Below are positions 3,687 through 13,890 of a DNA stretch of 13,929 nt, piece after piece. Made by a program: the position numbers and the translations under genes. Position 1 is the stretch's first letter; the number at the start of each line of letters is the position of its first letter. The notes under the pieces are model-generated. The model was not told the origin of the DNA. It saw nothing but the letters and a program-made list of their open reading frames with translations, and searched no databases. Source of the DNA: Candidatus Bathyarchaeota archaeon (GTDB lineage Archaea; Thermoproteota; Bathyarchaeia; 40CM-2-53-6; RBG-13-38-9); NCBI GenBank assembly GCA_007050885.1, contig SMYQ01000003.1, positions 1 through 13,929 on the forward strand, written 5' to 3'.

Positions 3687-4013
3687 ATGATGGATCAAAT
3701 CATTAAGGCGATTTTAGAGGCGGAAGAAAAGGCGAATGTGGGAATATCAGAAGCTTCTATGAAAGCGGAGCGAATGAAAGATACAATAAAAGTTCCAAAA
3801 GATGAACTATACGATAACAAACTAGCAGGTTGCAAGGAAGAGGCAAAAAAAATTCGTGAATCGGCCAAAAAAACCGCTTCAGACGAATCAAAGAAGATTA
3901 TGGAAGAATGTGAGAATGAACTGGCCGAATTGGAATCTCATGCGAGGAAACATATGCACAAGGCTGTAGAGACGATTGTGAAAGGGATACTATATGGTGA
4001 TGTAATCACTTGA
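3687..4013 (+). CDS. A-type ATP synthase subunit H-like (peripheral stalk coiled coil)
   Basis: This 108-residue protein is highly charged (Lys/Glu-rich with regularly placed Ala). Heptad-like stretches across about 5-35 and 50-100 (ILEAEEKANVGISEAS, KKIRESAKKTASDESKKIME) predict a long coiled coil. In A-type ATP synthases subunit H pairs with subunit E to form the peripheral stalks that hold the catalytic head against rotor torque. Identification rests on size, coiled-coil character and the next gene, a clear subunit E that overlaps it by 4 nt. Two ATGs stand in tandem and the first is used here. No Shine-Dalgarno is evident, so the message may be leaderless. The rest of the ATP synthase operon (I, K, C, F, A, B, D) is not nearby. 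Confidence 0.65.
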   Translation: MMDQIIKAILEAEEKANVGISEASMKAERMKDTIKVPKDELYDNKLAGCKEEAKKIRESAKKTASDESKKIMEECENELAELESHARKHMHKAVETIVKGILYGDVIT

Positions 4014-4657
4014 GTGGTTCACCTGCTGGCAAACTGGTCTCTAAAATATTGAAAGACTCTGATGAACAGACAAAGATGATTATCGATGAGGCTAATGTTT
4101 CATCCGCAGGTTTACGTGAAGAAAAAGTTACAGAGATAAAAGAAAAAGCAGAAACAAATTGTGAAAAAATATTAAACGCTGCTAAATTAGAAGCAGACAA
4201 TATTATTCGCCGTGAGACTGTGAATGCAAAAATTAAAACGCGTTTAAAAATCCTTTCACAAAAACGAAAATTATTAGATGAAGTATTTAAGAAGGCTGAA
4301 CAACAATTTGAGTCGAGTACCAAACAAGAGATTTATGGAAAAATGCTTAGTTCTCTTATAATCGAAGCGGCTACAGCCGCCGGAGGAGGAAACTTAGAAA
4401 TTTTTCTAAATGGGAGTGATGTAAAAAGAAAGCTTCCGGTTAAAGAAATATCAAAAACAGTAAGTTCAGAATTAGGTTCTGATGTAAATATTGTGATATC
4501 GAAGAAGACGATTGATGTCGTTGGTGGTGTACTTGTTCAAACTGCTGATAGGAAAACAAAAATAGATAGTACGCTAGAGGCAATACTCGAGAGATCAAGA
4601 AAAGATCTAGAGCTAAAAATAAGTGAAATCCTTTTCAAAGATCTTGTAAGGAAATAA
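4010..4657 (+). CDS. atpE: A-type ATP synthase subunit E
   Basis: The protein (215 aa) is a peripheral-stalk subunit of the archaeal A1Ao ATP synthase. Residues about 1-105 are a long charged helix rich in Lys, Glu and Ala (EKVTEIKEKAETNCEKIL, AKLEADNIIRRE) that would form the right-handed coiled coil with subunit H. Residues about 110-215 form the globular cap that binds subunit B. This part includes the family hallmark VVGGVLVQTADRKTKIDST followed by a helix ending in LFKDL. Length matches archaeal E subunits. The UUG start overlaps the stop of the subunit H gene (TTGA), which indicates translational coupling. Finding only H and E together, followed by hydrogenase-maturation genes, is unusual because these genes normally sit in the full ATP synthase operon. 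Confidence 0.85.
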   Translation: MSGSPAGKLVSKILKDSDEQTKMIIDEANVSSAGLREEKVTEIKEKAETNCEKILNAAKLEADNIIRRETVNAKIKTRLKILSQKRKLLDEVFKKAEQQFESSTKQEIYGKMLSSLIIEAATAAGGGNLEIFLNGSDVKRKLPVKEISKTVSSELGSDVNIVISKKTIDVVGGVLVQTADRKTKIDSTLEAILERSRKDLELKISEILFKDLVRK

Positions 4658-4716: not shown

Positions 4717-6990
4717 TTGCTTGCTGATATGTTGGTAAAAGGAATAGTCCAAGGAGTTGGTTTCAGACCTTTTGTTTATAGGCTTGCTATGGAGAAAGGA
4801 CTATCAGGATTTATACAGAATAGAGGCGATGCAGGAGTAAAAATAGTAGTCGAAGGTGAAGCTTTACAAATAGAGAGCTTCATCAATGAACTCAAAGCCA
4901 AGAAACCTCCATTATCGGAAATAGATGACATTATTATTGATTATAAAAAGGAAAATGTAGGATATTCAATTTTTAAGATTGAGAGTAGTTTTACAGGTGG
5001 AGAAGAAAGAGGATCAATAATTCCTCCTGACATATCTATCTGTGATAAGTGCATCAAGGAATTGGGAAATAAAGAAGATAGAAGATATCAATATTTTTTT
5101 ATTACTTGCACTGATTGTGGTCCAAGATACACATTAATCAATAAACTTCCTTACGATAGAAGCAATACCAGTATGAATTTTTTTAAAATGTGTACTGAAT
5201 GTAGTAGAGAATATAGATCAAAGAATGATCGTCGATTTCATGCGCAAACAAACGCTTGTTCAAAGTGTGGCCCCCAATTAAAATTGACCGATAATAAAGG
5301 TAAATCATTACGAATTGTCAATGACATCAAAAAAGTTGGACAATTATTAGATGAAGGAAATATACTCGCAGTGAAAGGAAATGGTGGATTTCATTTAATA
5401 TGCTCTGCAATTAACTCCAAACCATTATCAAGACTAAGAAAAGTGAAGCATCGAAGAGCAAAACCTTTCGCTGTTATGGCACGAAATATTGGAATAATAA
5501 AAAAATTTGCATATGTTAATGAAATAGAAACGGGTTTTCTTGAATCTTCTGCAAAGCCAATTGTTCTATTGAAAAAAAACGAAGAGCAATTTCTATCAAA
5601 TCTAGTCTCTCCTGGTCTCCACACCATTGGAATTATGCTTCCATATTCTGGTCTGCATGAGATTATATTTGATGTGACAAAAGAATCTGCTTTGGTAATG
5701 ACCAGCGCAAATCCGCCTAATGAGCCTATAGTGATAGATAACGATAATGCAATACGAAAGCTAGGTAATGTAGTTGACTACTTTCTCTTACATAATAGAA
5801 ACATTGAACAACGATGTGATGATTCTGTTATTCGAGTAATAAATCAAAAAAAAGTTTTTTTAAGAAGATCGAGAGGTTACGCACCTGTACCTTTGAATTT
5901 AAAACTTCCGACTTCAAATGATGTTTTAGCTCTAGGTGCAGAGTTGAATGTCGCTTGTTGTGTTATAGAGAATAATCGTGCATACCTGTCCCAACACATC
6001 GGAGATGTTGATACTCCTGAGACTCTAGATTTCCTAGAGAATGTTGCTAAGCATTTGCTAAACCTGACACATGCTAAAGCGGAAGTTATTGCTTGTGATC
6101 TACATCCTGGATATAATACGACTTTCTTAGCTAAGAGACTAAGTGAGAAATGGGATATCCCGATGGTGCAAATCCAACATCATCATGCACACCTTAGCAA
6201 ATTAATGACAGAATACGGGATAAGTGAAGCCATAGGGGTAGTGTGTGATGGATATGGTTATGGATCTGATGGTGGTGCTTGGGGTGGAGAAGTGCTCAAA
6301 TCTAATTTGCAGGAATTTAAAAGATTAGGTCATTTGCAGGATCAACCAATGCCGGGAGGTGATCTTGCTACCAAATATCCGCTCAGAATGGTTGCGGGGA
6401 TCCTTAATCTCGAAATCGATATCATGAAATTTCTAAGTGAGAGAGTAAGATATCTTCCTTATGGGGATAAAGAGATTGAAATAATCTCAAAACAAATTCT
6501 GTCAGGCAAAACACCTATGACAAGCAGTTGTGGTAGAGTTTTAGATGCAGTTTCATCTATGTTGGGTATATGTTCTGAACGAACCTATGAAGGGGAACCC
6601 GCGATGAAACTTGAAGCAATAGCGTCACAGGGGAAAGACCGTCTTAAGCTTGAACCAGAGATAAAGAATCGAATTATTGACACGACTTATCTGTTAAAAG
6701 AAATTCATGAAGCACAAACAAGAAATGAAATCCAAGTATCAGATTTAGCTCTATCCGCTCAATCGTACCTTGCTAGATCATTGGCTGAATTGGCGGTTGA
6801 ATGCGCAATCAGTGAGGGAATAGAGGCTGTTGGATTTACTGGAGGGGTAGCTTGCAACTCATATATTACTAATATGATAAGACAGAAAGTTGAAAAAAGT
6901 GGATTGAATTTTCTTTCACATGATAAAGTGCCGCCTGGAGATGGTGGAATCTCATTAGGTCAAGCAATTACTGCAACAAACATTATCTAA
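4717..6990 (+). CDS. hypF: carbamoyltransferase HypF, [NiFe]-hydrogenase maturation
   Basis: HypF turns carbamoyl phosphate and ATP into a carbamoyl group loaded on the C-terminal Cys of HypE, the source of the hydrogenase cyanide ligands. All domains are present over 757 aa, the normal length. The acylphosphatase domain has VQGVGFRPFVYR at about 11-22. Two zinc fingers have Cys109/112/131/134 and 159/162/181/184 with the expected CX2C-X18-CX2C spacing. A YrdC-like nucleotide-binding domain spans about 205-385 (KGNGGFHL, KHRRAKPFAVMAR, SANPPNEP). The Kae1-like carbamoyltransferase domain has HHHAH at 488-492, CDGYGYGSDGGAWGGE, and GFTGGVACN near the end. The UUG start places the VQGVGFR motif at the usual distance from the N-terminus. 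ATG at 4729 is the alternative. It lies upstream of the other hyp genes but is separated from hypC by 181 nt. Confidence 0.96.
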   Translation: MLADMLVKGIVQGVGFRPFVYRLAMEKGLSGFIQNRGDAGVKIVVEGEALQIESFINELKAKKPPLSEIDDIIIDYKKENVGYSIFKIESSFTGGEERGSIIPPDISICDKCIKELGNKEDRRYQYFFITCTDCGPRYTLINKLPYDRSNTSMNFFKMCTECSREYRSKNDRRFHAQTNACSKCGPQLKLTDNKGKSLRIVNDIKKVGQLLDEGNILAVKGNGGFHLICSAINSKPLSRLRKVKHRRAKPFAVMARNIGIIKKFAYVNEIETGFLESSAKPIVLLKKNEEQFLSNLVSPGLHTIGIMLPYSGLHEIIFDVTKESALVMTSANPPNEPIVIDNDNAIRKLGNVVDYFLLHNRNIEQRCDDSVIRVINQKKVFLRRSRGYAPVPLNLKLPTSNDVLALGAELNVACCVIENNRAYLSQHIGDVDTPETLDFLENVAKHLLNLTHAKAEVIACDLHPGYNTTFLAKRLSEKWDIPMVQIQHHHAHLSKLMTEYGISEAIGVVCDGYGYGSDGGAWGGEVLKSNLQEFKRLGHLQDQPMPGGDLATKYPLRMVAGILNLEIDIMKFLSERVRYLPYGDKEIEIISKQILSGKTPMTSSCGRVLDAVSSMLGICSERTYEGEPAMKLEAIASQGKDRLKLEPEIKNRIIDTTYLLKEIHEAQTRNEIQVSDLALSAQSYLARSLAELAVECAISEGIEAVGFTGGVACNSYITNMIRQKVEKSGLNFLSHDKVPPGDGGISLGQAITATNII

Positions 6991-7035
6991 GATCTGGAAA
7001 TATTCCTTTTAGAACACACAGAGTTTTTCAGAACC

Positions 7036-7044
7036 GTTTATATG
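7036..7044 (+). promoter_or_regulatory. possible TATA box in the hypF-hypC spacer
   Basis: GTTTATATG in the 181-nt gap between hypF and hypC resembles archaeal box A. It would start a transcript near 7068 with a leader of about 100 nt containing the palindrome at 7109-7123. A second AT-rich candidate (AAATAATTAAC, near 7136) lies closer to hypC. Neither can be confirmed from sequence alone. Confidence 0.25.
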
Positions 7045-7108
7045 AAGGTCTCTTGAACAATATTTTCGTTTTACAGAATGAAAGCGAATCTCTAGTTTAG
7101 ATAAATGC

Positions 7109-7123
7109 GGCAATTTAATTGCC
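7109..7123 (+). promoter_or_regulatory. 15-bp palindrome upstream of hypCBAD (possible operator)
   Basis: GGCAATTTAATTGCC is a perfect inverted repeat of two 7-bp arms around a single T, ending 48 nt before the hypC start codon. Symmetry, size and position in the only sizeable gap of the hyp cluster fit a dimeric helix-turn-helix regulator site. No T-run follows on the plus strand, so it is not an obvious terminator of hypF. Its AT-rich core means chance cannot be excluded. Confidence 0.35.
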
Positions 7124-7171
7124 TAAAAAAGTTTGAAATAATTAACTATTAATCTGAGAGTATAAGAGAAA

Positions 7172-7390
7172 ATGTGTCTTGCGATACCTGGAAAAATAAT
7201 GAAGATCGATGGTGATCTAGCAAAAGTCGATTTCGGAGATGGAACAGCTAGAGAAGTAAATTCTTCCTTAGTTGATGTAAAGATCGGACAATATGTAATT
7301 GTGCATGCGGGATTTGCCATTGAGATTCTTGATGAAAAAGCTGCTAAAGAGACGCTTAAACTATGGGATGAGATATTGGAAAGACGATAA
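7172..7390 (+). CDS. hypC: hydrogenase assembly chaperone HypC
   Basis: This 72-residue protein is the small chaperone that, with HypD, holds the Fe(CN)2CO group and delivers it to the hydrogenase large-subunit precursor. The diagnostic N-terminus MCLAIPGKI fixes the start codon, since Cys2 becomes the essential N-terminal cysteine after Met removal. The following beta-barrel matches the family (AKVDFGDGTAREVN, then IGQYVIVHAGFAIEILDE, then a C-terminal helix). It is the first gene of the hypC-hypB-hypA-hypD run and lies 42 nt before hypB. The gap before it may carry a promoter and a palindromic operator. Confidence 0.97.
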   Translation: MCLAIPGKIMKIDGDLAKVDFGDGTAREVNSSLVDVKIGQYVIVHAGFAIEILDEKAAKETLKLWDEILERR

Positions 7391-7432
7391 ATCAGATTCT
7401 CTGAGAAAAAGATGAAAAAGTGATATTTTGTT

Positions 7433-8107
7433 ATGACGAAAATTGTGGAACACAAGGAAGACGAAGTTTTTGATATTGAATTAGAAGAAAGTATATTAAA
7501 GAAAAATGAGGATTTTGCAAAAAGGAATAGTGAATTATTCAAAACACATAATATCAAAACAGTAGACATTATGGGGTCAATAGGTTCTGGAAAAACATCT
7601 CTAATTGAAGCTATGGTTAAAAGGCTGAAAGAAAAGCATCAAATTGCCGTTCTTAATGGAGATCTAACCACCACAATTGATTCAGATAGAGTAGCAAAAC
7701 ATGGCGTTGATGTCATTCAAATTAATACTGGAAAAGAATGTCACTTAGATGCTAATTTAGTTTCAAAAGCTATTGAAGATATGGAATTAGACCAATTAGA
7801 TCTTATCATAATTGAAAATGTGGGAAACCTGATATGCCCAGGGGAGTTCCGATTAGGAGCTGAAAAGAGGCTTGTAGTCATAAGTGTGACAGAAGGTCCA
7901 TACATGGTGTTAAAGCATCCTTTCATTTTCATGGAAGCTAATGTGGTAGTGATAAACAAGTTAGATCTTGCTGAAGCGATGAACGTAGAATTTGAAAAAC
8001 TCAAAGCTGATGTAATGAGAATAAATCCAAAAGCTGATGTGATTGGAACAAGTTGTAAAACTGACAAAGGAATCATATACGTAATAGGAGCTCTAAATCT
8101 AAACTGA
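7433..8107 (+). CDS. hypB: hydrogenase nickel-insertion GTPase HypB
   Basis: HypB is the SIMIBI-class GTPase that, with HypA, loads nickel into the hydrogenase large subunit. In 224 aa it shows the P-loop GSIGSGKTS at 48-56. The nickel/zinc site at the dimer interface has Cys103-His104 (GKECHLDA) and Cys135 (ENVGNLICPG). The base-recognition motif NKLD is at 175-178. It lacks both the His-rich nickel-storage stretch and the N-terminal CxxGCxC motif seen in some bacterial HypB proteins, as is common in archaea. The ATG is preceded by GTGAT (7420-7424), complementary to the 16S rRNA tail, at 8-nt spacing. The C-terminus is slightly short but complete. It sits between hypC and hypA. Confidence 0.95.
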   Translation: MTKIVEHKEDEVFDIELEESILKKNEDFAKRNSELFKTHNIKTVDIMGSIGSGKTSLIEAMVKRLKEKHQIAVLNGDLTTTIDSDRVAKHGVDVIQINTGKECHLDANLVSKAIEDMELDQLDLIIIENVGNLICPGEFRLGAEKRLVVISVTEGPYMVLKHPFIFMEANVVVINKLDLAEAMNVEFEKLKADVMRINPKADVIGTSCKTDKGIIYVIGALNLN

Positions 8108-8137
8108 TGACAATATTAATTGACGTTGGCTGCATAC

Positions 8138-8509
8138 ATGCATGAATTATCTATGGCAAGTAATATTATAGATATTGCAATCCAAGAAGCAAAGAAAAGA
8201 AATGCTACTTCAGTTTTCGAAGTCAATCTTGTTGTTGGTAAGTATTCAATGCTAGGGCTGGTACAATTACGTTACTGTTACGATCTACTGATAAAAAATA
8301 CACTTCTTGAAAACTCAAAATTAAACATGGAGCATGAAGACGGGAAGATACATTGTGACAAATGTAAATACGAAGGGCCAATACAATTGAAAGATGACCC
8401 GGAATACCACATCATATTTCCAACTCTTGTGTGTCCAAAATGTGGAAAACCGGCGGAGATTATCTCTGGAAGAGACTGTTATATTAAATCATTGAGAGTT
8501 AAGACATGA
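8138..8509 (+). CDS. hypA: hydrogenase nickel metallochaperone HypA
   Basis: HypA binds nickel at its N-terminus and hands it to the hydrogenase large subunit together with HypB. The ATG at 8138 is chosen over the in-frame UUG at 8120. It gives the invariant MHELSMA terminus, where His2 and the N-terminal amine are nickel ligands, whereas the longer form would bury His2. The product is 123 aa, normal for the family. The structural zinc site has two CxxC pairs, Cys73/Cys76 (CDKC) and Cys99/Cys102 (CPKC), with the usual spacing, followed by the C-terminal GRDCYIKSLRV strand. It starts 30 nt after hypB, and its stop overlaps the hypD start by 4 nt (ATGA), so translation is probably coupled. Confidence 0.95.
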   Translation: MHELSMASNIIDIAIQEAKKRNATSVFEVNLVVGKYSMLGLVQLRYCYDLLIKNTLLENSKLNMEHEDGKIHCDKCKYEGPIQLKDDPEYHIIFPTLVCPKCGKPAEIISGRDCYIKSLRVKT

Positions 8510-9597
8510 GTCAACTAATGGAATTCAGGGATAAAACTACCGCTGATAAAATTATCAAAAAATTAGTATCTATGGATCTAAACTTGACGTTGATGCACGT
8601 ATGTGGGACACATCAAGATACTATAGTGAAATATGGCCTAGATGATTTACTCAAAAAACATGGAGTTCGAATTAGACAGGGTCCAGGCTGCCCCGTTTGT
8701 GTAACCACTACTTCCGAAATCGAGATGTCGTTGGAATTAGCTAAAAAAGGTAAAACGATAGCTACTTTTGGAGACATGCTGAGAGTTCCAGGTCTAAAAG
8801 AATCACTAAATGATGTGAGATCACAAGGTGGAAAAGTAAAAATTGTATACAGCATCACTGACGCAGTAAATCTTGCAAAGAAAACTGATGATGACATAGT
8901 ATTTGTTGCGATAGGTTTCGAAACCACAGCTCCAAGCACGGCAATAACTTTGCTCAAGGGTCCTCCAAAAAATTTCTTTGTACTGAGCTTCCATAGATAT
9001 CTTCCACCAGCACTTAATGCTCTCCTTGGAATGGGTGAAATTAAACTACAAGGTATTATTGAGCCAGGTCATGTCAGCACAATAATAGGAATGAACGCAT
9101 ACGAAGGAGTATCCTCTAAGTATAGTATCCCACAGGTAATTGCGGGTTTTGAACCTTTGGATGTACTAATGGCTGTCTATATGATAGCAAAACAAATTCA
9201 TGAATCAAAATCAATTGTAGAGAATGAGTATAAGCGAGTCGTGAAAAAAGAAGGCAACTTGAAAGCTCTTAAGGCAATATCGGAAGTTTTCGAACCGAAG
9301 GACGCAAAGTGGCGGGGGTTCCCAAAAATTTCTTTATCCAAGATGGCGATTAAAAAAGAATTTGAATCTTTTGACGCTGAAAAACAATGGACTGATGAGC
9401 TGAAATCAATTATGCATAATGAATTCACGGAACCTAAGGGTTGTGAGTGCCATAGAGTACTTCGAGGATTAGTTGAACCTAAAGAATGTACATTATTTGG
9501 AGAAACCTGTAATCCAAATCATCCAATTGGGCCGTGCATGGTTTCTATAGAAGGATCCTGCAATATTGAATATAGATACCGAAGAATTATTCGTTAA
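8506..9597 (+). CDS. hypD: hydrogenase maturation iron-sulfur protein HypD
   Basis: HypD is the redox scaffold on which, with HypC, the Fe(CN)2CO unit of [NiFe]-hydrogenase is built. It has 363 aa, the usual length. The active-site cysteines are in HVCGTHQ (Cys33) and GPGCPVC (Cys62, Cys65), matching the family's essential CGTH and GPGCPVC motifs. GFETTAPSTA, PGHVSTIIG and AGFEPLD mark the other conserved loops. The C-terminal part has the cysteines expected around the [4Fe-4S] cluster (Cys313, 315, 328, 335, 344, 352). The ATG overlaps the hypA stop. It is the last gene of the plus-strand hyp run. The next gene starts 88 nt later after a stretch with no clear features. Confidence 0.97.
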   Translation: MSQLMEFRDKTTADKIIKKLVSMDLNLTLMHVCGTHQDTIVKYGLDDLLKKHGVRIRQGPGCPVCVTTTSEIEMSLELAKKGKTIATFGDMLRVPGLKESLNDVRSQGGKVKIVYSITDAVNLAKKTDDDIVFVAIGFETTAPSTAITLLKGPPKNFFVLSFHRYLPPALNALLGMGEIKLQGIIEPGHVSTIIGMNAYEGVSSKYSIPQVIAGFEPLDVLMAVYMIAKQIHESKSIVENEYKRVVKKEGNLKALKAISEVFEPKDAKWRGFPKISLSKMAIKKEFESFDAEKQWTDELKSIMHNEFTEPKGCECHRVLRGLVEPKECTLFGETCNPNHPIGPCMVSIEGSCNIEYRYRRIIR

Positions 9598-9685: not shown

Positions 9686-11086
9686 TTGAATCTTTTTTCA
9701 AAGAGAATATTTTTACAGGAGAAATATGGGCTGTATCAGAGACTGATTGTCGTTATTTTATTTTTAGGGAGTCTAATTTTATTATTGACTCATGTATCCC
9801 TAATTTTATTTGAAATATTATTTTGGATTCTTATTATGATTATCTTTTTGGTGATTCAATGTATACTTCTGAAGTTCTTTTTTGAAAAGGGGAACACGAG
9901 ATTTGAGTTTTCTAAATGGAAGATTATTCGTATTAAAATGGGTATTCTTGTACCCTCGTCTTTTGCTATGATATTTCTCTTATTTCATATTTCGATAATA
10001 TGGATAAAAAATGGTCAAATAATTACGTTGATTGAAGATCAACAAAGTTTCGCCTATTACTCATTGGCCCTCCGAATATCAGAACCGATAGGATACATAT
10101 CCGAATGGCTTCGGGAGATGCAAATTCCATTACTTTATTGGGGCGGCCATATGGCAACACATTTACCCGGTTATCCACTGATGATCCATATTGCGGTTCA
10201 GATATTTGGAGAAAATTCCTACTCGGTTATGTATCTAGTTTCAATACTTTCGGCTTTAACATTATTCCCAATATTCTGGATATCCAATTTAATCTACGGT
10301 TGGAGAGTTGCAATACTCTCATGTATTTTTTATTCCTGGGTCCCTTCCTTAATATTGAATTTTCCATACATGGATTTGATACTAGGATTCTTTGTATGCT
10401 CATCTATCTTATTATTCCTACATTCATTTAGAACTCAAAATATAGTTATGAGTCTAATTGGAGGATTGATACTTGCATTATGCATTTTCATGTCTTATGT
10501 TTCAGCATCAATTTTAGTAATGGTTTTGATATTTGTAATCTTTTCAGGTGAATTCAAAAAAATTATTAATTTATTATTCTATTTTCTAGGAACAGTTATT
10601 CCCTATGTAATCTTGGAAATGGCAATTGGTTGGCCTATTATTCAAGCAACATTATCGGCTCAAAAAACAAATTCATGGTTCTACTGGCATCTTAACTCAA
10701 TAAATCCACTTGTTTGGAATATCGGACATTCTACCTTATTCTTTTTCATGCTCATTGGGTTGCCTGTATGCATAATGTTCTTCATAGCTCTGATTAGATC
10801 ACTACGGTGTTTTTTCCATGAACATGAACACAGTACATTTGTATTGAGTTTCGCGGCTGTATTGTTCATCACCATTTTGTTTGCGAAACTCGAGCTAGCA
10901 AGAGTAGCTAGTTTTCTAATTCCATTTATAGTGATAATAGCAAGTAGTGAAATAGCGAAATTGAAGAATGAAGATAGCTTGATAACAAATTTTATTTTGT
11001 TAACTGTCACTCAATTTATTGTATTTCTTGTACTTGTATCACAAGTCGACTTGTATTCTAATATGTTAGGTTATCCTATTGTATGA
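9686..11086 (+). CDS. polytopic membrane protein, probable GT-C glycosyltransferase (PMT/ArnT-like)
   Basis: This 466-residue protein has about ten hydrophobic segments (for example 19-60, 88-107, 180-200, 206-226, 230-247, 253-285, 294-315, 350-370, 384-400, 407-420, 433-453). The loop after the second or third segment has acidic Glu117-Asp118 (IEDQQSF) and THLPGYPL at 158-165. That resembles the HPPGYP motif in the first large outer loop of GT39/ArnT-type enzymes, which use polyprenyl-phosphate sugars outside the membrane. LELARVASFLIPF near 402-414 resembles a late helix of archaeal relatives. The UUG at 9686 is the first usable start and has no clear ribosome binding site. The C-terminus converges on hypE with 12 nt between stops. 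A role in surface glycan synthesis fits the two upstream glycosyltransferases. The exact substrate is unknown, and it could be a non-enzymatic membrane protein. Confidence 0.65.
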   Translation: MNLFSKRIFLQEKYGLYQRLIVVILFLGSLILLLTHVSLILFEILFWILIMIIFLVIQCILLKFFFEKGNTRFEFSKWKIIRIKMGILVPSSFAMIFLLFHISIIWIKNGQIITLIEDQQSFAYYSLALRISEPIGYISEWLREMQIPLLYWGGHMATHLPGYPLMIHIAVQIFGENSYSVMYLVSILSALTLFPIFWISNLIYGWRVAILSCIFYSWVPSLILNFPYMDLILGFFVCSSILLFLHSFRTQNIVMSLIGGLILALCIFMSYVSASILVMVLIFVIFSGEFKKIINLLFYFLGTVIPYVILEMAIGWPIIQATLSAQKTNSWFYWHLNSINPLVWNIGHSTLFFFMLIGLPVCIMFFIALIRSLRCFFHEHEHSTFVLSFAAVLFITILFAKLELARVASFLIPFIVIIASSEIAKLKNEDSLITNFILLTVTQFIVFLVLVSQVDLYSNMLGYPIV

Positions 11087-11098
11087 AAGGGTACGTGT

Positions 11099-12151
11099 TT
11101 AGCATATCCTAGGCACTGGGTCTCCGATAGGTGGTAAGATTATTCGTTTGCCACCAATTGAAGTCTCGAGGATAACGTGATTGGATGCCTTAGTAGCTTT
11201 ACCGATAATTGCAGCGTCGTGACCGATTTCAATACTTTTCAATTTTTCTAGAATCTCTTCAGCTTTTTCCGGTATTGTTGCTATCACAAGTTTTCCTTCA
11301 TTACCGATCTCTAAAGGATCAATGCCTAGCATTTCACACGCAGCTTTAACTCCCGTTCTAATGGGTATCGTTTCTTCTTTAATTGTAATTCCAGTGTTTG
11401 ATTTTTCACTCCATTCATTCAACACATTAGCTAATCCGCCACGTGTAGGGTCCTTGATGTTAACGATGCCTCCTATTTGGAGCAGGTCGTTTACAACTTT
11501 GTTTAGGGGCATCATGTCTGATTTTACTTCTGTTTCAAAACCGTATCCTTCTCGCGATGAGAGGACAGCTATACCATGATCACCTAAGGTTCCAGAAACG
11601 ATTATGATATCTCCATTGGATAAGTTTGAGTCTAAAAGCCATCTGGATTTGAGGTCTCTGTGTTTCCTCACAATCTGCAAATTTTCATCAAGATAGCGGC
11701 TTCGCTTCCCGATGCCAGATGTATTAATTACGAATTTATCTAATGCTCCTTTCTCCATGACTTTGGTGTCGCCAGTTAGGACATATACTCCAGCTTCCTT
11801 ACAAGTTTCTTGCATGCTTTTTAGAATATTTTCGAATGCTTCAATCTCAAAGCCATCTTCAATTATGAATCCGGATGTAAGTGCTAAAGGTTCAGCGCCT
11901 ACTGCGGCAATATCGTTTACTGTCCCAGTAATGGCTAATCTTCCGATGTCTCCCCCTGGAAAAAAAAGAGGTTTAACAGTGTGCGAGTCGGACTTTAGAA
12001 CGATGTCTTCGATTACAGCTGAATCATCAAGAGCTTCTAATGGGACTTCGGCGGAACTTCCACCAAGATATTTTAGAACATATTTCTTGATTAGTTCTTG
12101 CATGGCAGCACCTCCGCCACCATGGGCCATTGAGATTCTATTCATATTCAT
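11099..12151 (-). CDS. hypE: carbamoyl dehydratase HypE, [NiFe]-hydrogenase maturation
   Basis: HypE accepts the carbamoyl group from HypF on its C-terminal cysteine and dehydrates it with ATP to a thiocyanate, the donor of the cyanide ligands. The protein (350 aa) ends in DPVPRIC, the required PRIC tail. ATP-binding features of the PurM-like fold are present: AHGGGGAAM at 9-17, DDSA at 42-45, PLFFPGGDIGRLA at 61-73, TGTVNDIAAVGAEP at 75-88, and later DPTRGGLANVLNE and the GNEGKL loop. It is the only hyp gene here on the minus strand. It starts 66 nt downstream of the tRNA-Pro gene on the same strand, so the two could share a transcript. No good Shine-Dalgarno precedes the ATG, and Met3 or Met8 are alternative starts. 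Confidence 0.96.
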   Translation of the reverse strand: MNMNRISMAHGGGGAAMQELIKKYVLKYLGGSSAEVPLEALDDSAVIEDIVLKSDSHTVKPLFFPGGDIGRLAITGTVNDIAAVGAEPLALTSGFIIEDGFEIEAFENILKSMQETCKEAGVYVLTGDTKVMEKGALDKFVINTSGIGKRSRYLDENLQIVRKHRDLKSRWLLDSNLSNGDIIIVSGTLGDHGIAVLSSREGYGFETEVKSDMMPLNKVVNDLLQIGGIVNIKDPTRGGLANVLNEWSEKSNTGITIKEETIPIRTGVKAACEMLGIDPLEIGNEGKLVIATIPEKAEEILEKLKSIEIGHDAAIIGKATKASNHVILETSIGGKRIILPPIGDPVPRIC

Positions 12152-12234
12152 GCCTTCTAATTGGAGGAGCTTTCAGATTCAATGATTTATGTCTATAGCA
12201 AATAATCAATTTCTATATGGTGGGGTCGGCGGGA

Positions 12235-12252
12235 ATTTCATGACGATGTCAA
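12235..12252 (-). other. tRNA-Pro intron 4 (18 nt, T-loop, 59/60)
   Basis: This is a strict BHB motif. The outer helix is the T-stem GCGGG/CCCGC. The 4-bp central helix is TTCA/TGAA, the bulges are AA|T and AT|T, and the inner helix is TGAC/GTCA closed by loop ATC. Cutting at both bulges gives the standard seven-base T-loop TTCAAAT. Every base from 12263 to 12229 is accounted for. Confidence 0.92.
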
Positions 12253-12274
12253 TTTGAACCCGCGACCGCCAGCA

Positions 12275-12286
12275 ATCTGGTTAGAT
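12275..12286 (-). other. tRNA-Pro intron 3 (12 nt, canonical 37/38)
   Basis: Exon CTGG (32-35) pairs with intron CCAG. The bulges are GG|A and AT|T, and the inner loop is the five bases TCTAA with no inner stem. The outer helix is the anticodon stem CCAGC/GCTGG, which exists only after intron 2 is removed. This is a very short intron at the standard archaeal position. Confidence 0.85.
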
Positions 12287-12293
12287 CCCCAGG

Positions 12294-12312
12294 TTCACCG
12301 CACATATGTGCT
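12294..12312 (-). other. tRNA-Pro intron 2 (19 nt, anticodon stem, 30/31)
   Basis: Exon TACC (25-28) pairs with intron GGTG to form the central helix. The bulges are AG|A and AA|C. The inner stem is the palindrome GCACATATGTGC. Removal brings C31 next to G30 and completes the CCAGC strand of the anticodon stem. No outer helix is evident, so this is a relaxed motif. Confidence 0.85.
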
Positions 12313-12322
12313 CTGGTATCCT

Positions 12323-12339
12323 TTTGGCGGTTCAAACCT
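12323..12339 (-). other. tRNA-Pro intron 1 (17 nt, D-loop, 20b/21)
   Basis: The central helix pairs exon TGGT (17a-20) with intron GCCA. The bulges are CA|A and AA|A, and the inner hairpin is GGT-TTGA-ACC. The outer helix is weak (only U-G pairs), so this is a relaxed form of the BHB motif. Because AAGG recurs at the boundary, several cut registers give the same mature sequence. The one given obeys the bulge rule. Confidence 0.8.
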
Positions 12340-12391
12340 TGACCAAACTAGACGACGACCCCACGATATGGCCTAATTGATTCAACATCCA

Positions 12392-12399
12392 TCTAATAA
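12392..12399 (-). promoter_or_regulatory. possible TATA box for tRNA-Pro
   Basis: TTATTAGA on the minus strand lies 30-37 nt upstream of the first tRNA base. That spacing fits an archaeal box A driving a tRNA transcript with a few leader bases. The match to consensus is only moderate. Confidence 0.3.
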
Positions 12400-12432: not shown

Positions 12433-13890
12433 TTAATTATATTCCAAATTGAAATTTCCAAAAATATCGTTGAATAATTGGTTTACATATTGTTTTGTTT
12501 TCATTCCTTTAGATTTGGCCAGAATCTCTATTCTTCTATTCATGCCCGTAGAATATTGAATAGCTTTTTTCGGAGCTTCAGCGAGTTGTTTTGGAAGGTT
12601 GATATCTATAGCTGTTTTTCTCAAGATGTGTTTTCTAACTTTATCATTTGGATTTGAGATCTTTAATTCTGAAGGAATTGATAAGCCATATTGAATAAGT
12701 TCCCAGTCTGCATAAGGATGAAGCATTCTCAACGTTTCTGGAGCAACTGACTTTTCACAAACTTGAAAACTATCTTCATGTGCATCTCTAACTCTATTAA
12801 AAATCGCTTCATGGAGTGCATTTGAATCCCCATGATCTAGTATCTTTAAAAACCTATAATACCCTCCAAAGAGTTCATCAGCTCCTTGACCAGTAAACAC
12901 TCTTGTTATACCAGAGTTCCTTGCAAGTTTTGCACATAAATAAAAAGAAGTAGCTAAACTCAATTTTACTGGATCAGCTTCCTCTATTCGCCATATGCTT
13001 TCTTTCAGAATATTTTCAAGATTATCTCTATCTATTTCTTGAATCTTCAAATTGATTCCAAGAAGTTTCGCTGCCTTTTCTGCCCATTCTGTTGAAGGTT
13101 GACCTTTATCTCCCACAACTAAGCCAACAACATCAATGTCATTTTGAGATAAAATATGTGCAATAAGAGAACTATCTATTCCTCCAGAAAAACTAACACC
13201 TACAGTTTTGGTTTTTAATGATCTTTCTAATACAGCCTTTCGCAATAGACTTCCCAATTTTTTAGCGATTACTTCATTATCAGCGTCAATAAATTTTTGC
13301 AATTTTATTTGTCGTATACATGAAGGTTTACGGTCGTGACCCAATAGCCAAATATGACCAGGTGGGAATATTTTCGTTTTTGTTATTCCAAGATTCCAGA
13401 GTGCTTTTTTTTCAGTCGCTAAAGCTATAAAGTCCGTATCCCAACCATAATAAAGAGGTTTGAGACCGATAGGATCTCTCGCAACAAAAATTTTTCCCTC
13501 GTGAAGGATAACAATCTCGTATTGACCATCAATTTGTGATAAAAATTTTGTTAATGATCTTTCTGGAGTATCTTCGGACAGGATTTCAAATAATTGATCG
13601 AATGATTGTTGAAAATCCAGATAATCGCTTTCAATAATAAACGAACGATTTTGAAATATTATTGGTTGAGGACAATCGCTAGGATCAATCTTAGACATGT
13701 TATATGCAATTGCAATATTTGACGACTGAATTTGGTTTAACTCTTCAAGTTTATTTGTGAAAAAACATCCGTGGTTCGTTGCAATGCCAAGGTTTTCGTT
13801 TCCCCGGTGTGTTTGGGCTTCCATCATCTTCTTCAAAATAGGAATTATGTTGTCGTTATTTCTCGATTTGACTACGCTCACAGCACCCAT
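12433..13890 (-). CDS. asparagine synthetase B-like protein lacking the glutaminase cysteine
   Basis: The 485-residue protein has the two-domain asparagine synthetase layout. The N-terminal Ntn-glutaminase-like domain (about 1-195) has QTHRGNENLGIA at 26-37 and VARDPIGLKPLYYG at 136-149. The synthetase domain has the ATP-pyrophosphatase loop SFSGGIDSS at 233-241 and GQGADELFGGYY at 334-345. The usual MCGI start with nucleophilic Cys2 is absent. The protein begins MGAVSVVKS, and the frame upstream to the window edge shows no Cys codon in the expected place. It may therefore use free ammonia, or make a different amide or adenylate. In-frame codons stay open to the window edge, so a start beyond 13929 cannot be excluded, but ATG 13890 with GGGGGA about 11 nt upstream is the best visible start. 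The tRNA-Pro gene lies downstream on the same strand. Confidence 0.8.
   Translation of the reverse strand: MGAVSVVKSRNNDNIIPILKKMMEAQTHRGNENLGIATNHGCFFTNKLEELNQIQSSNIAIAYNMSKIDPSDCPQPIIFQNRSFIIESDYLDFQQSFDQLFEILSEDTPERSLTKFLSQIDGQYEIVILHEGKIFVARDPIGLKPLYYGWDTDFIALATEKKALWNLGITKTKIFPPGHIWLLGHDRKPSCIRQIKLQKFIDADNEVIAKKLGSLLRKAVLERSLKTKTVGVSFSGGIDSSLIAHILSQNDIDVVGLVVGDKGQPSTEWAEKAAKLLGINLKIQEIDRDNLENILKESIWRIEEADPVKLSLATSFYLCAKLARNSGITRVFTGQGADELFGGYYRFLKILDHGDSNALHEAIFNRVRDAHEDSFQVCEKSVAPETLRMLHPYADWELIQYGLSIPSELKISNPNDKVRKHILRKTAIDINLPKQLAEAPKKAIQYSTGMNRRIEILAKSKGMKTKQYVNQLFNDIFGNFNLEYN

Follow-up and report, generated by a model that had tools for sequence, protein, structure and literature searches.

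A tRNA-Pro(GGG) gene with four predicted introns in a Bathyarchaeota-related archaeon

Results

A tRNA-Pro(GGG) gene lies between AsnB-like and HypE-like genes

The window (the whole 13,929-nt stretch of DNA analyzed) has a G+C content of 36%, in keeping with the AT-richness remarked upon in an earlier note on this DNA. On its minus strand, a detail that the earlier note did not give, lies a tRNA-Pro(GGG) gene, read from 12362 to 12218 (Table 1). The asparagine synthase-like gene (AsnB) upstream of it placed the host: the nearest relatives found through this neighbor are five Candidatus Bathyarchaeota loci, and locus L001 (RBG_13_38_9) is 91.5% identical to the window over 9.5 kb. The downstream neighbor contains AIR-synthase domains and is read as HypE from these domains and from its context. 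Both neighbors flank the tRNA gene in the loci of six relatives (L001, L002, L004, L005, L012, and L013). A block directly upstream of the tRNA gene is kept in the relative G004 although the nearby sequence differs; it looks promoter-like and may function as such.

Table 1. Features of the tRNA-Pro(GGG) locus, in window coordinates
Feature	Coordinates	Strand	Details
Asparagine synthase-like gene (AsnB), upstream neighbor	12433..13890	-	
Upstream block TTATTAG...TGAATCAATTAG	12373..12399	-	11 to 37 nt upstream; common to window, G001, G002, and G004
tRNA-Pro(GGG) gene	12218..12362	-	145 nt; four introns; CCA encoded at 12220-12218
Exon 1, positions 1-20b	12340..12362	-	23 nt
Intron 1, 20b/21	12323..12339	-	17 nt; central helix UGGU/GCCA, inner helix GGU/ACC
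Exon 2, positions 21-30	12313..12322	-	10 nt
Intron 2, 30/31	12294..12312	-	19 nt; central helix UACC/GGUG, inner helix GCAC/GUGC; without stable outer helix
Exon 3, positions 31-37	12287..12293	-	7 nt; CCUGGGG, including anticodon GGG
Intron 3, canonical 37/38	12275..12286	-	12 nt; central helix CUGG/CCAG; outer helix is the anticodon stem; inner helix nearly absent
Exon 4, positions 38-59	12253..12274	-	22 nt
Intron 4, 59/60 in T loop	12235..12252	-	18 nt; full motif: T stem as outer helix, central UUCA/UGAA, inner UGAC/GUCA
Exon 5, positions 60-76	12218..12234	-	17 nt
AIR-synthase-domain gene, downstream neighbor	11099..12151	-	read as HypE

Elsewhere in the window, hydrogenase maturation genes HypF, HypC, HypA, and HypD (assigned by Pfam) occupy positions 4717 to 9597 of the plus strand, and a putative 224-aa frame at 7433 to 8107 looks HypB-like. 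The HypE-like gene lies on the opposite strand from these genes, beyond a membrane glycosyltransferase-like gene. Two short plus-strand genes at 3687 to 4657, between glycosyltransferases and the hydrogenase maturation genes, match the G (below cutoff) and E subunits of V-type ATP synthase.

Each of the four boundaries follows the BHB rule

At all four introns of the window, two 3-nt bulges stand 4 bp apart and the cut separates bulge nucleotides 2 and 3, as the earlier note had claimed; all four central pairs are formed. The precursor contains each intron string a single time, with the length and site proposed there. The exact cut of intron 1 slides over A residues, and the BHB motif fixes the placement used. 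Joining the exons yields a 79-nt product, including the encoded CCA, in which all 21 stem pairs form and the anticodon is GGG, so the description of a complete and fully paired tRNA also stood. The cloverleaf of this joined RNA has an energy of -29.9 kcal/mol, compared with a minimum of -31.6 kcal/mol for another fold, which is 1.7 kcal/mol lower (ViennaRNA).

The flanking helices, as read from the sequence and its pairings, are less uniform. Intron 4 has both; intron 3 has an outer helix and almost no inner one; and in introns 1 and 2, inner helices are present and stable outer ones are absent. In this gene, the central helices and bulges thus appear strict and the flanking helix relaxed. When introns were shuffled with their boundaries held fixed, a full 4/4 central helix arose at frequencies of 0.067 (intron 1), 0.013 (intron 2), 0.012 (intron 3), and 0.014 (intron 4), which gives a joint chance of about 1.5e-7 if the four are independent.

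The 7-nt exon 3, also singled out earlier, is taken up completely by the motifs on either side: 1 nt belongs to the bulge that follows intron 2, 4 nt to the central helix of intron 3, and 2 nt to the 5' bulge of intron 3. By this reasoning, 7 nt would be the minimum for an exon whose neighboring BHB motifs form together and share no nucleotides.

The same four introns recur in related genomes

The same introns are present in at least 9 of the 256 genomes of the class to which the relative G001 belongs. Eight of these genomes (G001, G002, G004, G005, and G035 to G038) match the precursor over its full or nearly full length, the G001 and G002 precursors being identical, and the ninth, G033, was found through a first-exon pattern and has introns at the same four sites. 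Intron counts by genome are lower bounds, with the best three candidates per genome scored and states read from the fetched loci.

Relatives also carry tRNA-Pro(GGG) genes with zero, one, two, or three introns. A three-intron group, comprising nine distinct sequences, has introns at 20b/21, 30/31, and about 45/46; in G027 to G029, they are at 30/31, about 45/46, and 59/60; and in G032, they are apparently at 20b/21, 37/38, and 59/60 (placed by eye; spliced alignment put the last one elsewhere). Two introns occur at 37/38 and 59/60 in G030 and G031 and at 20b/21 and 30/31 in G224, and G142 has a single intron in the D loop.

A tree of aEF-2 was built from 26 of 30 chosen genomes, G035 having no usable protein and G003, G012, and G037 weak matches only; some rows are partial or contain an extra frame, and aEF-2 is present twice in G053 and in G119. 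In this tree, G001, G002, G004, G005, G036, and G038 fall into a single clade (99/98), nested in a group of 17 genomes (99/97) in which the gene has at least two introns wherever its state was read (G034 aside). The nine genomes outside this group have no intron or, in G142, one; the zero-intron state of G039 and G047 rests on full-length BLAST rows. G033 is placed within the 17-genome group and outside the main four-intron clade, at a position that the tree does not resolve, which implies that the four-intron state either is older than the clade and was later lost in places or arose twice.

Central helices are conserved as the intron loops diverge

Across nine distinct precursors (those of the window and the nine genomes, with G001 and G002 counted once), the central helix has 4/4 pairs in 34 of 36 introns and 3/4 pairs in 2, the broken pairs being in intron 1 of G001/G002 and intron 3 of G033. 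An alignment of eight precursors, from which G033 and the duplicate G002 were left out, shows standard pairing in 99.2% of cells across the 16 central-helix pairs, as opposed to 28 to 51% when partners are slid by 1 to 3 columns. The central helices alone contain no double changes, because their exon strand hardly varies, and shuffling letters between sequences gave equally high values in 500 of 500 trials. Support for the central helices is that the intron strands stay complementary while the loops drift. Over the whole motif, 97.4% of cells pair, and 4 pairs have changed on both sides, a number reached by 5 of 500 shuffles; the inner helices covary.

In the full window precursor, ViennaRNA assigns low probabilities to the central helices of intron 1 (0.04) and intron 3 (0.02), and these rise to 0.92 and 0.57 when intron 2 is taken out. 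The window alone would suggest that intron 2 leaves first. In eight of the nine precursors, the intron 3 helix became more probable once intron 2 was removed, and in G033 its probability stayed at 0; because the overall pattern is not conserved across the nine, no order of removal is claimed.

No second GGG gene was found in the relatives searched

Among the 126 proline codons in 12 open reading frames of the window, 58 are CCU or CCC, and a GGG isoacceptor is therefore probably needed. (A 107-aa plus-strand frame at 927 to 1250, with proline-rich repeats, has 35 proline codons, of which 14 are CCU or CCC, and is either a real protein or a chance frame.)

It is conceivable that the gene, heavily interrupted as it is, is a decaying or silent copy beside a functional, intron-poor one, and the search for such a copy, a check that the earlier note had called for, covered the genomes of relatives only. 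A near-complete scan of G001 (1,731,111 bases of contigs C1 to C48, in 120 stretches including overlaps, some joins being nonoverlapping, with 3/4 helices allowed) found the four-intron gene as the only GGG tRNA. The eight relatives with full-length matches likewise yielded no intact second copy among the best three candidates per genome, from assemblies (MAGs) that may be incomplete. Against these eight, an intact-gene query gave best matches of 8.7e-12 or weaker, three having none at 1e-4, whereas against full-length intact loci elsewhere it gave 2.2e-34 to 1.2e-20. Stems and cut helices are moreover kept across diverged genomes, and we consider a decaying copy very improbable and a working gene much the better reading.

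The G001 scan returned 18 tRNA genes scoring at least 18.5 (shuffled maximum, 15.5), which is an incomplete tRNA set. By scan, with the tRNA-Pro(GGG) call alone checked against relatives, 3 have no intron, 6 have one, 5 have two, 3 have three, and 1 has four, such that the 17 genes other than tRNA-Pro(GGG) range from 0 to 3. The tRNA genes of this genome (stretches L140 to L289) are thus intron-rich, with introns in 15 of 18 and two or more in 9 of 18. Seven relatives supplied 20 long tRNA regions for a search for other tRNAs with four or more introns; none was found, the regions having at most three by scan, with no call for 4 of the 20. A search with the Rfam tRNA model at E 1 gave 14 to 31 matches per relative.

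Comparison with uninterrupted genes decides the intron count

A BHB-aware scan, which is not a general tRNA caller, was run on both strands. It allows a cloverleaf to be broken by as many as five introns, provided that the central helix at every BHB cut has 4/4 pairs, and it returned a single match in the window. This match is the four-intron tRNA-Pro(GGG) with the introns first proposed in the earlier note, which had advised a BHB-aware fold; 400 dinucleotide-shuffled windows gave no match.

The same stretch might instead hold fewer introns. When the intron number is capped, a two-intron parse (anticodon AAC, 20/21 pairs, 9-nt variable loop) and a three-intron parse (anticodon GCG, 20 pairs) also pass the scan, so the scan alone is insufficient for the count. 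In the G001 copy, the strict scan favored the AAC parse until 3/4 helices were allowed, upon which four introns and GGG were returned. At the strict setting, two introns were assigned to the copies of G001 (anticodon AAC), G004 (GGG), and G037 (GGG); eight copies of the three-intron group were called two-intron genes, mostly with other anticodons (L017, L019, L020, L021, L024, L028, L030, and L032); and the G033 copy received four introns at partly different sites. The scan needs an intact 5' part as its anchor, so introns before G19 escape it.

Uninterrupted tRNA-Pro(GGG) genes are present in other genomes of the class, and it is these that settle the count at four. Spliced alignment of the window to ten uninterrupted references, which uses no BHB rule, recovered these four introns as well; against the best reference, there were 5 substitutions over 73 nt. 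The joined exons differ from 16 distinct uninterrupted sequences, caught by a pattern, at only 5 to 13 of 76 positions, and the differences in the T stem fall on both partners of a pair; this comparison with tRNA-Pro is another that the earlier note had recommended. (L055 and L056 contain introns and were dropped from the pattern-caught set, and the more divergent L090 escaped the pattern.) The AAC parse also requires its 9-nt variable loop and, to our knowledge, A34 anticodons are not expected in archaea. A lower intron number is accordingly less probable still than a decaying copy, and four introns remain the preferred count.

Spliced alignment has artifacts of its own. In L017, L020, and L030, it divided a single D-loop intron into two, and in L053 and L054, it introduced an extra 12-nt intron with 0/4 BHB pairs; all five are counted as three-intron genes. 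Because the letters at 20a/20b differ, intron 1 was off by one or two bases in L014, L015, and L058, the last being the G033 copy (1/4 or 2/4 pairs); for these three, the placement from the nine-precursor set was used instead.

Two common finders miss or misname the gene

ARAGORN reported no tRNA and no tmRNA in the window, and Rfam gave no tRNA match there even at E 1. At the gene coordinates, the only Rfam match is a tmRNA of 19.8 bits, below the cutoff of 47. The suspicion that standard finders may miss or misassign the gene was thus well placed, and such genomes probably contain more tRNA genes than are counted. The idea that the locus encodes a different RNA, such as a tmRNA, takes its support from this one match and is extremely unlikely, given that the score is far under the gathering threshold, that the alignment rests on tRNA-like ends, and that ARAGORN, which also searches for tmRNA, is silent. 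A DUF805b match at 10216 to 10263 (E 0.35) was taken as chance.

Relatives encode a splicing endonuclease with a crenarchaeal-type loop

The splicing endonuclease family was found in all nine relatives searched, with two genes in six of them, which may denote an (alpha-beta)2 enzyme. A K-P-K loop motif occurs in each of the eight catalytic subunits found (L095 to L102), and these subunits thus carry the crenarchaeal-type loop (lysine, then proline or valine, then lysine or arginine); the search of G037 returned the other subunit (L103) and no catalytic one. The closest solved relatives of the G001 catalytic subunit are 2cv8_A and 3p1z_B, and we take 3p1z to be the Aeropyrum pernix endonuclease. 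Residues 5 to 182 of the 183 in the G001 protein align to 3p1z, and in this protein, the one so aligned, K36-P37-K38 falls on K44-P45-R46 of 3p1z_B. Likeness to the two-subunit enzyme, at the level of sequence, consists of this alignment and the loop of the G001 catalytic subunit. In the excerpted text of PMC12397907, whose residue numbers agree with those of 3p1z, K44-P45-R46 are tied to cutting, and such loops are described in the accessible part of PMC6379350 as accompanying broad specificity and intron-rich tRNA sets. The earlier note had reasoned that relaxed motifs imply a broad-specificity endonuclease encoded elsewhere. A candidate of the expected kind is present in the relatives, outside the window; the relaxation seems limited to the flanking helices, with central helices and bulges strict.

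Discussion

We consider the locus to be, with a probability of about 93%, a working tRNA-Pro(GGG) gene of a Bathyarchaeota-related archaeon, from whose single precursor four introns would be spliced out. The reading draws on the scan, on spliced alignment, and on the recurrence of the introns in other genomes. The gene would be transcribed as one 145-nt RNA. At each of the four sites, 4 bp would form between the exon that precedes the cut and the intron end, and two 3-nt bulges would remain. Cleavage between bulge nucleotides 2 and 3 would be the task of a two-subunit endonuclease carrying the crenarchaeal-type loop. The five exons would then be joined by an RNA ligase, presumably RtcB, into a normal tRNA reading CCU and CCC.

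Four introns, recovered by both scan and spliced alignment, exceed the number reported in the portions of the literature available to us. Two papers give a maximum of three introns per archaeal tRNA gene (PMC4033280 and PMC4390854), and others speak of two or three (PMC6379350 and PMC3218864). Three-intron genes are described in Thermoproteales, namely tRNA-Pro(UGG) of Pyrobaculum islandicum and tRNA-Glu(UUC) of P. calidifontis, and 20/21, 30/31, and 59/60 are listed among the known intron sites (PMC4090602 and PMC4390854). As far as the excerpts of these papers extend, the present gene resembles those of Thermoproteales in having several BHB introns in one tRNA gene, at both canonical and noncanonical sites, and departs from them in having four introns, another isoacceptor, another lineage (with a window of 36% G+C), and a 7-nt exon.

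Two further systems come close. In the wetland-soil Asgard Atabeyarchaeia and Freyarchaeia, described in 2024, over half of the tRNA genes are multi-intron, often at noncanonical sites; these belong to another lineage, and their per-gene counts are in Supplementary Data 4, which may include four-intron genes (PMC11291895, main text). The tRNA-Ile(UAU) of the red alga Cyanidioschyzon merolae likewise has introns in the D, anticodon, and T arms, but it is eukaryotic and has three (PMC9602550, in the part available). Literature searches found no case of a four-intron archaeal tRNA in the text they reached. This is likely, although not established, to be the first such gene, since the Asgard set may include others; with that proviso, the earlier placement of four introns at or beyond the known limit is upheld. 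As far as the searched literature goes, the number of introns per archaeal tRNA gene moves from three to four, and does so in a gene that is probably needed.

On a broader view, to which we give even odds, the tRNA-Pro(GGG) gene of this archaeal branch acts as an intron trap, its five recurrent sites (20b/21, 30/31, 37/38, about 45/46, and 59/60) gaining and losing introns independently of one another. Under it, the four-site state would have been held through substantial protein divergence, and the 7-nt exon would be a geometric floor (1 + 4 + 2 nt) that puts the gene at its packing limit. Since relatives have zero to three introns at defined sites, intron gain and loss can be traced site by site. 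The questions of minimal exon size and removal order can be addressed with one short RNA and one enzyme.

Several other genomes of the class (loci L036, L084, L088, L089, and L092 to L094) seemingly have one longer intron in the D loop of tRNA-Pro(GGG). Some of these longer introns end like the neighboring exon (in L036, TTGGTCA stands before the intron and CTGGTCA at its end), which might record how the intron originated.
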